From Cyanobacteriota bacterium (GTDB lineage: Bacteria; Cyanobacteriota; Cyanobacteriia; CACIAM-69d), in the NCBI GenBank assembly GCA_022402445.1, contig JAKRSF010000008.1, positions 434,001 through 498,000 on the forward strand: DNA of 64,000 nucleotides. The letters are read 5' to 3'. Below the pieces are notes generated by a model. The model had not been told where the DNA came from. It ran no database searches and worked only from the letters and a program-made list of their open reading frames with translations. Of the stretch, positions 46,800-51,101 are shown in pieces (position 1 is the first letter of the stretch; every line of letters starts with the position of its first letter). Position numbers and translations under genes: made by a program.

Positions 46800-47135
46800 A
46801 TGCTATTGAAGTCCACGACCCGCCATGTTCACCTGTTCGCTGGCACGGTTCAAAATGATGCCATCGTGCCCTGTGGCGATCGCCTAACCCTGACGCTGGA
46901 TCCCGACAATGAATTCCTGTGGAATGATGCGGCGGTGCAGCGGGTGCGGGCGGAGTTTGAACGGCTCGTCGCCGCCAGCAACGGGGCGGAGTTGACGGAA
47001 TATAACCTGCGCCGCATTGGCTCGGATCTGGAGCACTTCATCCGGGGCCTGCTCAATGACGGGGCGATCGCCTATAACTTGGAAACCCGGTCCTTGAACT
47101 ACAGCATGGGCTTGCCTCGGGTGGCTCAAGATTAG
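46800..47135 (+). CDS. ndhM: NAD(P)H-quinone oxidoreductase subunit M
   Basis: Oxygenic-phototroph-specific subunit of the thylakoid NDH-1 complex, used in cyclic electron flow and CO2 uptake. At 111 residues it has the family length and signature: MLLKSTTRHVHLFAG, LTLDPDNEFLWND, LTEYNLRRIGSDLEHFIRGLL and YSMGLPRV. It sits on the cytoplasmic side of the arm and has no membrane helix. A TAGAAT box at 46753-46758 may be its -10. This gene is one of the clearest signs that the host is a cyanobacterium. Confidence 0.95.
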   Translation: MLLKSTTRHVHLFAGTVQNDAIVPCGDRLTLTLDPDNEFLWNDAAVQRVRAEFERLVAASNGAELTEYNLRRIGSDLEHFIRGLLNDGAIAYNLETRSLNYSMGLPRVAQD

Positions 47136-47181
47136 GCGGGTGGCCGATTCCTTTTCCCCTGGCCCTGGCCCGGTGGTTCCT

Positions 47182-49902
47182 ATGTCCCAGTCTCCTGTGC
47201 CCCGGTTTCGATGGATGGCGATGGGGTGTTGCGCTGCCCTTGGGGCGATCGCGGGGGGGCCGTCGGGGGCGATCGCCCAGGTGGTGGCGGCTCCGGACGG
47301 GACGGGGACGGTCGTGGTGCCGGTGCCGGGGGCGGAGGAGGCGGTGGTGATCGGCGGCGGTTCCCCTTCGGCGGATGGGGTGAACCTGTTCCACAGCTTT
47401 TCGCAATTTGATTTGCCCGCCGGATCCACGGCAATTTTCCAAGACAGCCCTGGGATCCAAAATATTCTGGGGCGCATTGGGGGCGATCGCGCCTCGCAGA
47501 TCAATGGGCTTTTGCGCAGTGACGGCGGCGCGCGGCTGTTTTTGATCAACCCCGCCGGTCTGATTTTTGGTGACGGGGCCGTGGTGTCCGTGGGGGGCAG
47601 TTTTGTCGCGACCACCGCCAGCGGCGTGCGGTTCGGCGATGGGGGTTGGTTCAGTGCCGTCGGGGCCAATGAATATGCGCGGTTGACCGGGGCTCCCGAT
47701 GCCCTGGCGTTTCCCAGCGCCAATCCTGGCGGCCTGATCCATACGGGAGCTTTGCGGGCCGGTGCCCTGGGCCTGTTGCCGGACGGAGGGGCGCAGGTGG
47801 CCCTGATCGGTGGGGCGGTGGTGTCTACGGGGGCCGCGATCGCCAATGGTGGCCCCGTGTCGCTGGTGGGGGTGCCGGGGGGTCAGGGGGTGATCCTGCG
47901 GCCCGTGGGGTCGATCCTGGGGATCGAGGTGGTGCCGTCGGGGAATTTTTCGACGCTGCCCAATGGGTTGGGGTTTGAGCCGCTGGCCCTGCCGGTGCTG
48001 CTGACGGGGGAGGCGGGGGCGATCGCAACGGGATTAGAAGTCAATGATCAGGGGCAGGTGGTGCTAGTCGAGCAGGGGCAGGCCACCGCGATCGCAGCGG
48101 GAACGGTGGTGGTGGCGGGGGAAGTTGGGGGTGATCGGCCCGGAGCGATCGTGCAATTGATCGGGACGCCGGTGGTGGATTTGCGGGAAGCGCCAGAGCC
48201 GCTAGATCCGTCTGGAGCTGCCGATGATGATGATCCGCCACGCCCGAGGCTTCCCTTCGCGCCGGAGGAGGCGATCGCCTTTGACCCGGAGCTTGAGGAC
48301 GGCGGCGATATGGAAACCGACGCGGGGGGCGGCTTCCTGGGCAACGGTCCCCTGGGGGAGTTTGAGGGGCCTGACTTCGACGGGTTTGAACTGGAGGAGG
48401 ATGGGGGCAATTTTGGGCCGGGGGGCGAGTTTGAGGGCGATGGGGCGGATGGTCCCCTGGCGGATGGGCCGTTTGAAGATGGACCGCTGGCAGAGGGTCC
48501 CCTAGAGGACGGTCCCCTGGCGGATGGGCCTTTGGAGGATGGGCCTTTGGCGGACGGTCCCCTAGAGGATGAGGGGGAAGCGGGCGATCGCGCCTTTGAT
48601 GGCCCCTTGGCGGACGGGGATTTTGATCCATCGGCCCTGGGGGGCGAATTGGATTTGGACTTGGATTTTAGTGACGCGGGGGCGTGGCTGGCGGGGGAAT
48701 TTGATCGGGGGGTTGGCCTGCTGGAGTTGGGCCGCGAGCAGCAATTGAGTCAATTTTTCGAGCGGGATTGGGCCACAGAAACGAACAATGTGGGGGATAT
48801 TCGCGATCGCCTCGCCCAGGGAGCGGCGGATACCCAAACCAATACGGCCCTGGTGTATGTGGTGCTGCAACGCGATCGCCTGGAAACCATTACCATCACG
48901 GCCCAAGGGGAACCCGCCTACCACAGCGTGCCGATCGATCGCGAGACGGTGTTGGCGACGGCGCGCCAGTTCCGTGCCCAGTTGACCAATCCCCTGGACC
49001 TGGACCGGGAACCCCCGTCCTACCTGGCGGCTAGCCAACGGCTCTATCGCTGGATTATTCAACCGATGCTGGCGACCCTGCGCGATCGCGGCGTCGATAC
49101 CCTGCTCCTGTCCCCCGGTGAGGGGCTGCGGCTGGTGCCCTATGCGGCCCTCCACAGCGGCCAGGGTTTTCTAGTAGAAGAATTCGCGATCGCCACCACC
49201 CCCAGCATCAACCTGACCGATACGCGCTACAGCAGCATCCGCGATGCGCCGGTGTTGGCCATGGGGGCGTCCCAATTCGAGGCGCTGCCCCCGCTGCCCG
49301 CCGTGCCCCTGGAACTGCGGACGATCGCGCGATCGCTCCCCCCCATCCTCGACCAAAATTTCACGATCGCCGCCCTCCAAACCCAGCGCCGCGAAACCGC
49401 CGCCCCCATCCTGCACCTGGCCACCCACGGGGAATTTAACGGCACCCACCCGGCGGAGTCCTACATTCAGTTTTGGGGCAATGAACGGATCACCCTCGAT
49501 CGCCTCGCGGACCTCCAACTCAACGATCCCCCCCTGGAATTGCTGGTCCTGAGCGCCTGCCGCACCGCGATCGGTGACCAGCGCAACGAACTGGGCTTCG
49601 CGGGCCTTGCCGTCCAGGCGGGCGTCAAATCCAGCCTCGCGAGCCTGTGGTCCGTCAGCGACGCCGGAACCCTCGCCTTCATGGCCGAGTTCTATCAGCA
49701 GCGCACCCAAACCACCACCAAGGCCAAGGCCCTGCAAGCAACCCAACGGGCAGTCATTCAGGGGCAGGTGGCGATCGCGGAGGGCCGCCTAGTCACCCGT
49801 GGCGCGGCGACGCCCATTGATTTGCCCAACACCCGCGCCGCCATTAACCTGCGACACCCCTACTACTGGTCCGGCTTTTCCCTGGTGGGGAGCCCCTGGT
49901 GA
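47182..49902 (+). CDS. Exported TPS (filamentous haemagglutinin N-terminal) - CHAT protease fusion
   Basis: 906 residues from ATG 47182 (GTG 47140 is possible). A signal peptide (MAMGCCAALGAIAGG, cleavage near residue 32) precedes a two-partner-secretion/FHA N-terminal domain (about 34-151) with VNLFHSFSQFDLPAG, the NPAG motif in LINPAGLIFG and SVGGSFVATTA. Then come more beta-rich sequence, an acidic linker (about 336-526) with GPLADGPLEDGPLADG repeats, and a CHAT caspase-like domain (about 606-901) with catalytic His749 (LHLATHGEF) and Cys793 (VLSACRTAIG), plus GLAVQAGVKSSLASLW. It would be exported through an Omp85-type TpsB pore, but no TpsB gene is in the window. Role unknown; FHA-CHAT fusions are recurrent in cyanobacteria, little studied. 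Confidence 0.88.
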   Translation: MSQSPVPRFRWMAMGCCAALGAIAGGPSGAIAQVVAAPDGTGTVVVPVPGAEEAVVIGGGSPSADGVNLFHSFSQFDLPAGSTAIFQDSPGIQNILGRIGGDRASQINGLLRSDGGARLFLINPAGLIFGDGAVVSVGGSFVATTASGVRFGDGGWFSAVGANEYARLTGAPDALAFPSANPGGLIHTGALRAGALGLLPDGGAQVALIGGAVVSTGAAIANGGPVSLVGVPGGQGVILRPVGSILGIEVVPSGNFSTLPNGLGFEPLALPVLLTGEAGAIATGLEVNDQGQVVLVEQGQATAIAAGTVVVAGEVGGDRPGAIVQLIGTPVVDLREAPEPLDPSGAADDDDPPRPRLPFAPEEAIAFDPELEDGGDMETDAGGGFLGNGPLGEFEGPDFDGFELEEDGGNFGPGGEFEGDGADGPLADGPFEDGPLAEGPLEDGPLADGPLEDGPLADGPLEDEGEAGDRAFDGPLADGDFDPSALGGELDLDLDFSDAGAWLAGEFDRGVGLLELGREQQLSQFFERDWATETNNVGDIRDRLAQGAADTQTNTALVYVVLQRDRLETITITAQGEPAYHSVPIDRETVLATARQFRAQLTNPLDLDREPPSYLAASQRLYRWIIQPMLATLRDRGVDTLLLSPGEGLRLVPYAALHSGQGFLVEEFAIATTPSINLTDTRYSSIRDAPVLAMGASQFEALPPLPAVPLELRTIARSLPPILDQNFTIAALQTQRRETAAPILHLATHGEFNGTHPAESYIQFWGNERITLDRLADLQLNDPPLELLVLSACRTAIGDQRNELGFAGLAVQAGVKSSLASLWSVSDAGTLAFMAEFYQQRTQTTTKAKALQATQRAVIQGQVAIAEGRLVTRGAATPIDLPNTRAAINLRHPYYWSGFSLVGSPW
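48446..48570 (+). repeat. In-frame tandem repeat coding (D/E)GPL(A/E)
   Basis: Degenerate 15- to 18-bp units (GATGGTCCCCTGGCG and relatives) inside the CHAT fusion gene code about seven DGPLAD/EDGPL units. Units alternate A and E after the Leu, suggesting a two-unit duplication history. Confidence 0.65.
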
Positions 49903-49955: not shown

Positions 49956-51101
49956 CTAGCGATCGCGGTTCGCGGCCAACTGCTGACGGATGCGGTCAAA
50001 GGTGCCGCCACTTTCAAAGAACTTTTTCTGGATTGCGCTCCAGCCGCCAAAGTCCGCCGCCGTGGCCGGATTGTCCACCGCCGGATGGGTCGCCGCCAGG
50101 GCTGGGGTCGCCGCGATCGCCGGATCAATGGACCGAAACCCCGTTGCCGCAAAGGCGCGCTGGGCCTCGGGGGTGAACAAAAAGCGCACAAACGCCTCCA
50201 CCACCTCCCGATTGCCGTGGCGTTCCACATAGCGATCGACGATCGCCACCGGGTTCGCGATTTCCACATTGCGCCGGGGCACCAGATAGGGCAACTCCTC
50301 CCCATTGAGGGCCGCTAAAATCGCCTCATTTTCATAATTCACCAGCACATCGCCCCGCCGCTGCTTATAGAAAATGCCCGTCGCCTCCCGCGCATCCCTC
50401 GGCAGAAGCGGCGCATTGCGATAGACCTGCTTCACAAACGCCTCCGCCGCCGCCTCCCCGCGATCGCTCGCCGCGTGCCATAGGGCCAGAAACGTCCAGC
50501 GGGCCGCCCCCGACGTTTTCGGATCCGGCGTGAGAATACTCACATCCGGGCGGATCAAATCCTCCCAATCCTCGATTTGCTTCGGGTTGCCATCGCGCAC
50601 AATCAGCGCCACAACGGAGGTGGTGGGGACGCTCTGGTTGGGCAATTCCGCCTCCCAGCCCGGATCAATCAGGCCCGTTTCCTCCAGCTTTTCCACATCG
50701 AGCCCCAGGCCCAGATGCACCACATCGCCATCGAGGCCGTCAATGAGGGCGCGGGTTTGGGAGCCGGAGGGGCCGTAGCTTTGGCTAACAATGACCTCCT
50801 GGCCGCTGTGCTCCTGTCGCCACTGCTCGGCAAAGGCGGGGATGATTTGGCTGTAGGCCGCCTTCATGGTGTTGAGCGACACTAAGGTGAGTTCAACGCG
50901 ATCGCGCGGGCCACCCCCACAGCCCCCCAAGCCCAGGGCCAGCACCGCCACCGCCAGCCACGACCCAAGCCGAGGGAGCCAACGGCGATCGCCCCGCGCT
51001 TGACGTTGATCCCGTTGATCTTGATCTTGACTGGCCTGGAGCCCATGGCCCCCAATTCCTTGCCGCCCCACGATTTTGTCCCACTCCCTGCTGCGGACCA
51101 A
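49956..51101 (-). CDS. sbpA: Sulfate-binding lipoprotein of an ABC transporter
   Basis: Periplasmic solute-binding protein of the sulfate/thiosulfate CysAWTP-type uptake system. Lipobox LALGLGGC with Cys61 as lipid-modified residue (numbered from the TTG at 51101; GTG 51071 is an alternative and the n-region is oddly long and Gln/Asp-rich). Mature part: LTLVSLNTMKAAYSQIIPAF, SYGPSGSQTRALIDGLDGDVVHLGL, VRDGNPKQIEDWEDLIRPDV, TPDPKTSGAARW and FYKQRRGDVLVNYENEA, all characteristic of sulfate binders. No permease or ATPase gene for sulfate is next to it. Divergent from a metal ABC ATPase with a Fur/Zur-like box between. Confidence 0.87.
   Translation of the reverse strand: MVRSREWDKIVGRQGIGGHGLQASQDQDQRDQRQARGDRRWLPRLGSWLAVAVLALGLGGCGGGPRDRVELTLVSLNTMKAAYSQIIPAFAEQWRQEHSGQEVIVSQSYGPSGSQTRALIDGLDGDVVHLGLGLDVEKLEETGLIDPGWEAELPNQSVPTTSVVALIVRDGNPKQIEDWEDLIRPDVSILTPDPKTSGAARWTFLALWHAASDRGEAAAEAFVKQVYRNAPLLPRDAREATGIFYKQRRGDVLVNYENEAILAALNGEELPYLVPRRNVEIANPVAIVDRYVERHGNREVVEAFVRFLFTPEAQRAFAATGFRSIDPAIAATPALAATHPAVDNPATAADFGGWSAIQKKFFESGGTFDRIRQQLAANRDR

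Follow-up and report, generated by a model that had tools for sequence, protein, structure and literature searches.

The window, by which we mean the whole 64,000-nucleotide stretch of cyanobacterial DNA analysed here, contains on its forward strand a single open frame (47182..49902) that encodes a protein of 906 amino acids, in which Pfam profiles recognize a two-partner-secretion (TPS) domain and a CHAT domain. An in-frame GTG at 47140 is an alternative start, which would add 14 residues and bring the protein to 920 amino acids. The N-terminus reads as a Sec signal peptide (47182..47277, residues 1-32; MSQSPVPRFRWMAMGCCAALGAIAGGPSGAIA, with Q following the predicted cut), whose cleavage after AIA is predicted from the sequence and a rule-based test rather than from SignalP. 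Close to the mature N-terminus stands a TPS secretion domain with an NPAG motif, which is of the NPxG type (47290..47901, residues 37-240). This domain matches PF05860 (E = 2e-35) and the FHA N-terminal (NPXG) profile TIGR01901 of NCBIfam (E = 8e-22), and its sequence matches in the PDB are the TPS domains of EtpA and HxuA.

Between the TPS and CHAT domains there is only a short post-TPS stretch and an acidic low-complexity linker, evident in the translation (48187..48681, residues ~336-500). Inside the linker, Tandem Repeats Finder detects a tandem array of DGPL units (48444..48571) with periods of 15, 30 and 60 bases. A pre-CHAT module follows (48682..49029, residues 501-616), as defined by alignment with four short exported CHATs that have it in common (L034, L035, L113 and L117); its first part is probably helical. 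The remainder is the CHAT caspase-like cysteine peptidase domain (49030..49893, residues 617-904), a full-length match to PF12770 (E = 1.1e-64, profile positions 3-289 of 289) that ends at the stop codon; searches of the PDB by phmmer and by profile found no relative of this part by sequence. The catalytic residues are His749 (codon 49426..49428, motif HLATHGEF) and Cys793 (codon 49558..49560, motif LSACRT). Thus the parts listed in a first-pass annotation of this DNA, namely the signal peptide, the FHA/TPS domain, the acidic repeat linker and the CHAT domain, are all borne out, the signal peptide as a rule-based prediction, and its numbering of the two catalytic residues is exact.

Directly upstream on the same strand lies ndhM, of the cyanobacterial and plastid type (46800-47135), whose end lies 4 bp from the TPS-CHAT gene if this starts at the GTG, and 46 bp from it if it starts at the ATG. 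This neighborhood is not conserved, because other genes stand there in the closest relatives (L067 and L068). The next gene downstream (49956-51101) is on the other strand. We found no gene for a TpsB pore, a DUF928 protein or a CHASE2 protein near the TPS-CHAT gene of the window.

The source genome (4.08 Mb) contains 13 CHAT places and only four TPS-domain proteins, each of which has a C-terminal CHAT domain. The window protein is the smallest of these four and has almost no stalk, whereas its three paralogues (1,659-1,832 amino acids; L032 and L033) have some 1,200 amino acids from TPS to CHAT, repetitive at first and then proline-rich or acidic. Two further proteins of this genome (L034 and L035, of 479 and 454 amino acids) consist of a signal-peptide-like N-terminus, the pre-CHAT module and CHAT, without a TPS domain; among its other CHATs there are non-TPS proteins with TPR-like repeats. 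There is also a CHAT fragment of 144 amino acids (G000:C11:19252-19608). The TpsB partner that the first-pass annotation proposed to look for elsewhere in the genome has one candidate, a single clear ShlB-type protein of 623 amino acids on contig C6 (ShlB, E = 3e-35; POTRA_2, E = 6e-26). It is on a different contig from the window gene and is thus unlinked to it, and we regard it as the candidate cognate pore. A second POTRA_2 match, beside an lpxC-like gene, looks like a general Omp85 protein.

Relatives of the window protein are widespread. The protein was matched in 101 of 244 genomes sampled across the phylum, nearly all of the same class; a search with the single protein gave only one named relative, in a metagenome-assembled genome of Synechococcus lacustris, and a scan of viral contigs found no relatives. 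To define the family we fetched 60 loci and annotated them with profiles built in this analysis. The fused layout occurs in 47 open frames (the window gene, its paralogues and its relatives), of 861 to 3,935 amino acids, one of which is truncated at the edge of its contig; some genomes contribute more than one. More than 40 fused relatives from other cyanobacteria keep the layout of the window protein, and the CHAT domain reaches the C-terminus in nearly all members. The E-values, and the recurrence of this two-domain arrangement in over 40 further loci, exclude a chance origin. In one related family, TPS-CHATs reach up to 3,928 amino acids (L074 and L071).

The loss of catalytic residues from most orthologues would have counted against the interpretation in the first-pass annotation, and we see the opposite: His and Cys, aligned with His749 and Cys793 of the window protein, are invariant in all 74 aligned CHAT domains (46 from TPS-CHATs, 23 from short CHATs and 5 from longer proteins without a TPS match). 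A low number of cysteines was considered as a sign of export, and 44 of 46 TPS-CHATs have only one in the CHAT domain; this feature does not discriminate, because the TPR-CHATs that we compared also have one. Most short CHATs (16 of 23, e.g. L034, L035 and L113) share a further conserved cysteine early in the CHAT domain, which is almost absent from TPS-CHATs.

In a tree of CHAT domains, whose bootstrap is not fully settled, the TPS-CHATs and the short forms group together, apart from the TPR-CHATs, with support of 93/62, or 98/99 when one outlier is removed. Eighteen of the short forms constitute one clade nested among the TPS-CHATs (99/96), and two others are separate. From this nesting, the short CHATs probably arose by loss of the TPS domain, more than once.

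Export of the TPS-CHATs is well supported by three independent signs in the sequence: the predicted signal peptide, constraint on the TPS domain and an adjoining TpsB gene. By a simple rule, not SignalP, a signal peptide is recognized in 34 of 47 TPS-CHATs and 17 of 20 short CHATs, as against 43 of 355 in a background of other open frames of the same loci. The TPS domain is under purifying selection, with dN/dS of 0.085 between the two relatives L067 and L068. Of the 47 loci, 15 have a TpsB gene less than 500 bp from the TPS-CHAT, a rate that is biased, because some loci were picked after searches had already shown a TpsB nearby. These pairs come in several orientations and from different families (in L031 and L105, for example, the two genes are divergent neighbors), and we estimate that chance would produce hardly any, given the few TpsB genes per 5 Mb. 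With a TpsB candidate in the source genome and a TpsB beside the TPS-CHAT in many relatives, the proposal of an exported, catalytically intact CHAT protein is supported. The accompanying premise, which places the action of CHAT proteases inside cells, needs widening, since cyanobacteria have an entire clade of CHATs, some with TPS and some without, that carry signal peptides.

In these respects the family resembles the TpsA exoproteins (FHA, HMW1, EtpA, CdrA, LepA), which have a signal peptide, an NPxG TPS domain and a ShlB-type TpsB partner. TpsA exoproteins also have a long beta-helical passenger; at that position the TPS-CHAT paralogues have a long repetitive region, and the window protein a short post-TPS stretch with the linker. 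The difference lies in the cargo, which in the window protein is a caspase-like CHAT cysteine peptidase. A protease exported by this route is already known in LepA (PMC5422565), and the word CHAT does not occur in that review of TPS systems. The catalytic half resembles Craspase, the type III-E CRISPR TPR-CHAT, and HetF, a putative cyanobacterial protease whose active site is needed (PMC8406250), both of which have a CHAT domain with the His/Cys dyad. However, Craspase is intracellular and HetF works at the divisome, whereas in the window protein a signal peptide and a TPS domain take the place of TPRs.

Constraint differs greatly among the parts of the protein. The window protein is 60% identical to its closest relatives (L067 and L068) in CHAT and 45% identical in TPS, but in the linker the figure drops to 39% and the alignment has many gaps. 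When L067 and L068 are compared with each other, dN/dS amounts to 0.029 for CHAT and 0.58 for the linker, with the value for TPS, given above, in between. CHAT is therefore the most constrained part and more conserved than the stem. Since CHAT is the most conserved part and the linker the least, this pattern is the reverse of that in a CdiA-type toxin, whose tip varies; a strongly constrained enzyme on a freely evolving tether fits the sequences better.

We favor, with a probability of roughly 0.45, the reading that the window protein is a TPS-exported, surface-held CHAT cysteine protease that cuts itself or surface partners under signal control. The export signals, the pore, the intact catalytic dyad and the constraint are supported by sequence; we infer the action of CHAT outside the inner membrane, its substrate and its trigger. 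The predicted signal peptide would take the protein through Sec into the periplasm, where the TPS domain would pass it on to the only TpsB pore of the genome. CHAT, preceded by a short TPS/beta stalk and the flexible acidic linker, would emerge last or stay facing the periplasm. There, or at the surface, CHAT may be a regulated protease whose targets are its own stalk or other TPS or surface proteins, and such cuts could set how long surface proteins stay attached.

A precedent is CdrA of Pseudomonas, a TPS adhesin that is released when the periplasmic protease LapG, under the control of c-di-GMP, cuts its C-terminal tail (PMC5422565). In that system a TPS surface protein is controlled by a protease that answers to a second messenger, and CHASE2 proteins with GGDEF/EAL outputs are neighbors in some TPS-CHAT loci. 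Unlike CHAT, LapG is a separate and unrelated periplasmic cysteine protease; in the TPS-CHATs, protease and TPS protein form a single polypeptide.

The most serious alternative, which we nonetheless consider doubtful, is a protease of general use, outside the cell or in the periplasm, which would attack bulk or foreign proteins, whether for nutrients, for matrix turnover or for defense against phages or grazers, with neither self-processing nor control by a signal. Stalkless CHATs with signal peptides are nested in the family, two of them in the source genome, and the enzyme can therefore act free of TPS. On the other hand, digestive proteases are to our knowledge rarely tethered. The phage-resistant mutant RD5 of Nostoc 7120 is mutated in a protein with an FHA N-terminal domain (PMC10811720), which would suit a role in defense if that protein bears CHAT. 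Craspase, a CHAT relative of known function, is tightly regulated: it stays inactive until a trigger arrives and has a single specific target (PMC9729208), for which reason we favor a regulated, specific cut over bulk digestion.

The conserved layout, the invariant dyad, the adjoining TpsB genes and the constraint on CHAT together argue against a dead enzyme, a variable toxin of the contact-dependent inhibition (CDI) type and a cytosolic protein. As a catalytically silent fold, CHAT might serve in the periplasm as a plug or anchor and so keep the TPS protein in the outer membrane; its position at the very C-terminus in nearly all members suits such a plug, and CdrA has a periplasmic C-terminal tail (PMC5422565). 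An invariant His and Cys would be unexpected in a mere plug, however, and we consider this improbable.

Still less probable, at long odds, is a CDI-like or polymorphic toxin whose CHAT tip is delivered into neighboring cells. CdiA, exported through CdiB, likewise is a TPS protein with a C-terminal enzymatic domain, and CHAT occupies the place of the CdiA-CT toxins. Yet the TPS-CHATs have no variable toxin tip. CHAT is instead under the strongest purifying selection, the same tip occurs in genomes of many families, we saw no VENN-type boundary, and no small co-directional immunity-type gene lies downstream in the window, L067 or L068 (in the latter two, a Type ISP restriction-modification gene follows the TPS-CHAT). 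The suggestion of contact-dependent inhibition is thus not supported, and for the accompanying suggestions of kin recognition and programmed death signaling we found no evidence. That the TPS match is a leftover in a cytosolic protein, with CHAT acting like the intracellular TPR-CHATs, draws on the non-TPS CHATs with TPR-like repeats in the same genome, but is scarcely credible in view of the signal peptide, the intact TPS domain under purifying selection and the adjoining TpsB genes of relatives.

For a surface-held protease under signal control, plausible inputs are found among the neighbors of several relatives. Besides TpsB, two families recur near the TPS-CHATs of relatives: DUF928 proteins, whose N-terminus resembles a signal peptide, and CHASE2 proteins, whose outputs are cyclase, GGDEF, GGDEF-EAL or kinase domains. 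DUF928 and CHASE2 genes lie less than 3 kb apart in 40 of 98 cases, compared with 0.9 expected; such pairs are seen, for example, in genomes G123, G093, G095 and G189, and in the source genome at C5:298136-300795. By comparison, a DUF928 gene lies within 5 kb of 5 of 67 CHATs in 11 genomes (0.5 expected), and of only 1 of the 16 TPS-CHATs in the genomes counted. The link is therefore strong for these two families with each other and touches only a minority of TPS-CHAT loci.

On two plasmids such genes lie together. A conjugative plasmid of Nostoc sp. UHCC 0302 (L129, 95735-107935) has them in one complete run, in the order CHASE2, DUF928, a TPS protein, TpsB, a TPR-CHAT and a second TPS protein; here CHAT is a separate gene with a signal-like N-terminus and is probably exported. 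A Gloeothece plasmid combines CHASE2, a weak DUF928 match, CHAT, a TPS protein and an Omp85/ShlB pore. CHAT and TPS thus also occur as adjacent but separate genes, so that their association is wider than the fusion, which is one form of it. In four places (G027:C1:2377229-2379013, G011:C1:169894-171912, G056:C20:200831-202012 and G143:C4:90890-92455), divergent CHAT and CHASE2 matches share an apparent single open frame, which looks like a CHAT-CHASE2 fusion.

We tentatively suggest, as an unlikely extension, that all these genes form one trans-envelope proteolytic signaling module of cyanobacteria. Its members would be an exported CHAT, fused or separate, TpsA, TpsB, a DUF928 protein that is likewise exported, and a CHASE2 sensor whose output is a cyclase, GGDEF/EAL or kinase. 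CHAT would cut a surface or periplasmic protein, the CHASE2 sensor would read or trigger the cut, and the TPS-CHAT fusion would be the compacted form.

In the literature searched, we found nothing that joins the CHAT domain with FHA, the TPS domain or CHASE2; a single paper mentions DUF928 and, to judge by its title, concerns WD40 proteins. The earlier remark that the function appears undescribed therefore agrees with our search. TPS-exported proteases and CHAT proteases are each known already; it is their combination that is undescribed in the literature searched. The public list of domain architectures in Pfam may well include TPS with CHAT, and so our claim concerns the literature and not the databases. 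CHAT proteases are known from intracellular signaling, cell death and CRISPR, and what we describe is apparently a large and unstudied family of exported ones across cyanobacteria. If so, this conserved branch would represent caspase-type proteolysis at the cyanobacterial cell surface, and would make the release of surface proteins or the making of envelope signals open to direct tests through a single gene, a single pore and a single catalytic cysteine. DUF928, and the many CHASE2 sensors now without a role, would gain a suggested one as well.

Finally, in three loci a family 2 glycosyltransferase (GT2) domain is fused in frame ahead of the TPS-CHAT (L079:7709-13177, L092:6522-11414 and, on the reverse strand, L094:6299-11320), with a truncated copy at L080:7639 and remnants in L091 and L098. 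The case in L092 looks like a true fusion, because there is no ATG, GTG or TTG in the 90 codons before TPS. These proteins, which have a signal-peptide-like stretch in mid-protein, are topologically odd. In the source genome, a GT2 gene (L033:6762-7721) overlaps the start of a TPS-CHAT gene. The GT2-TPS-CHAT arrangement recalls the glycosyltransferase partner of the HMW1 adhesins.
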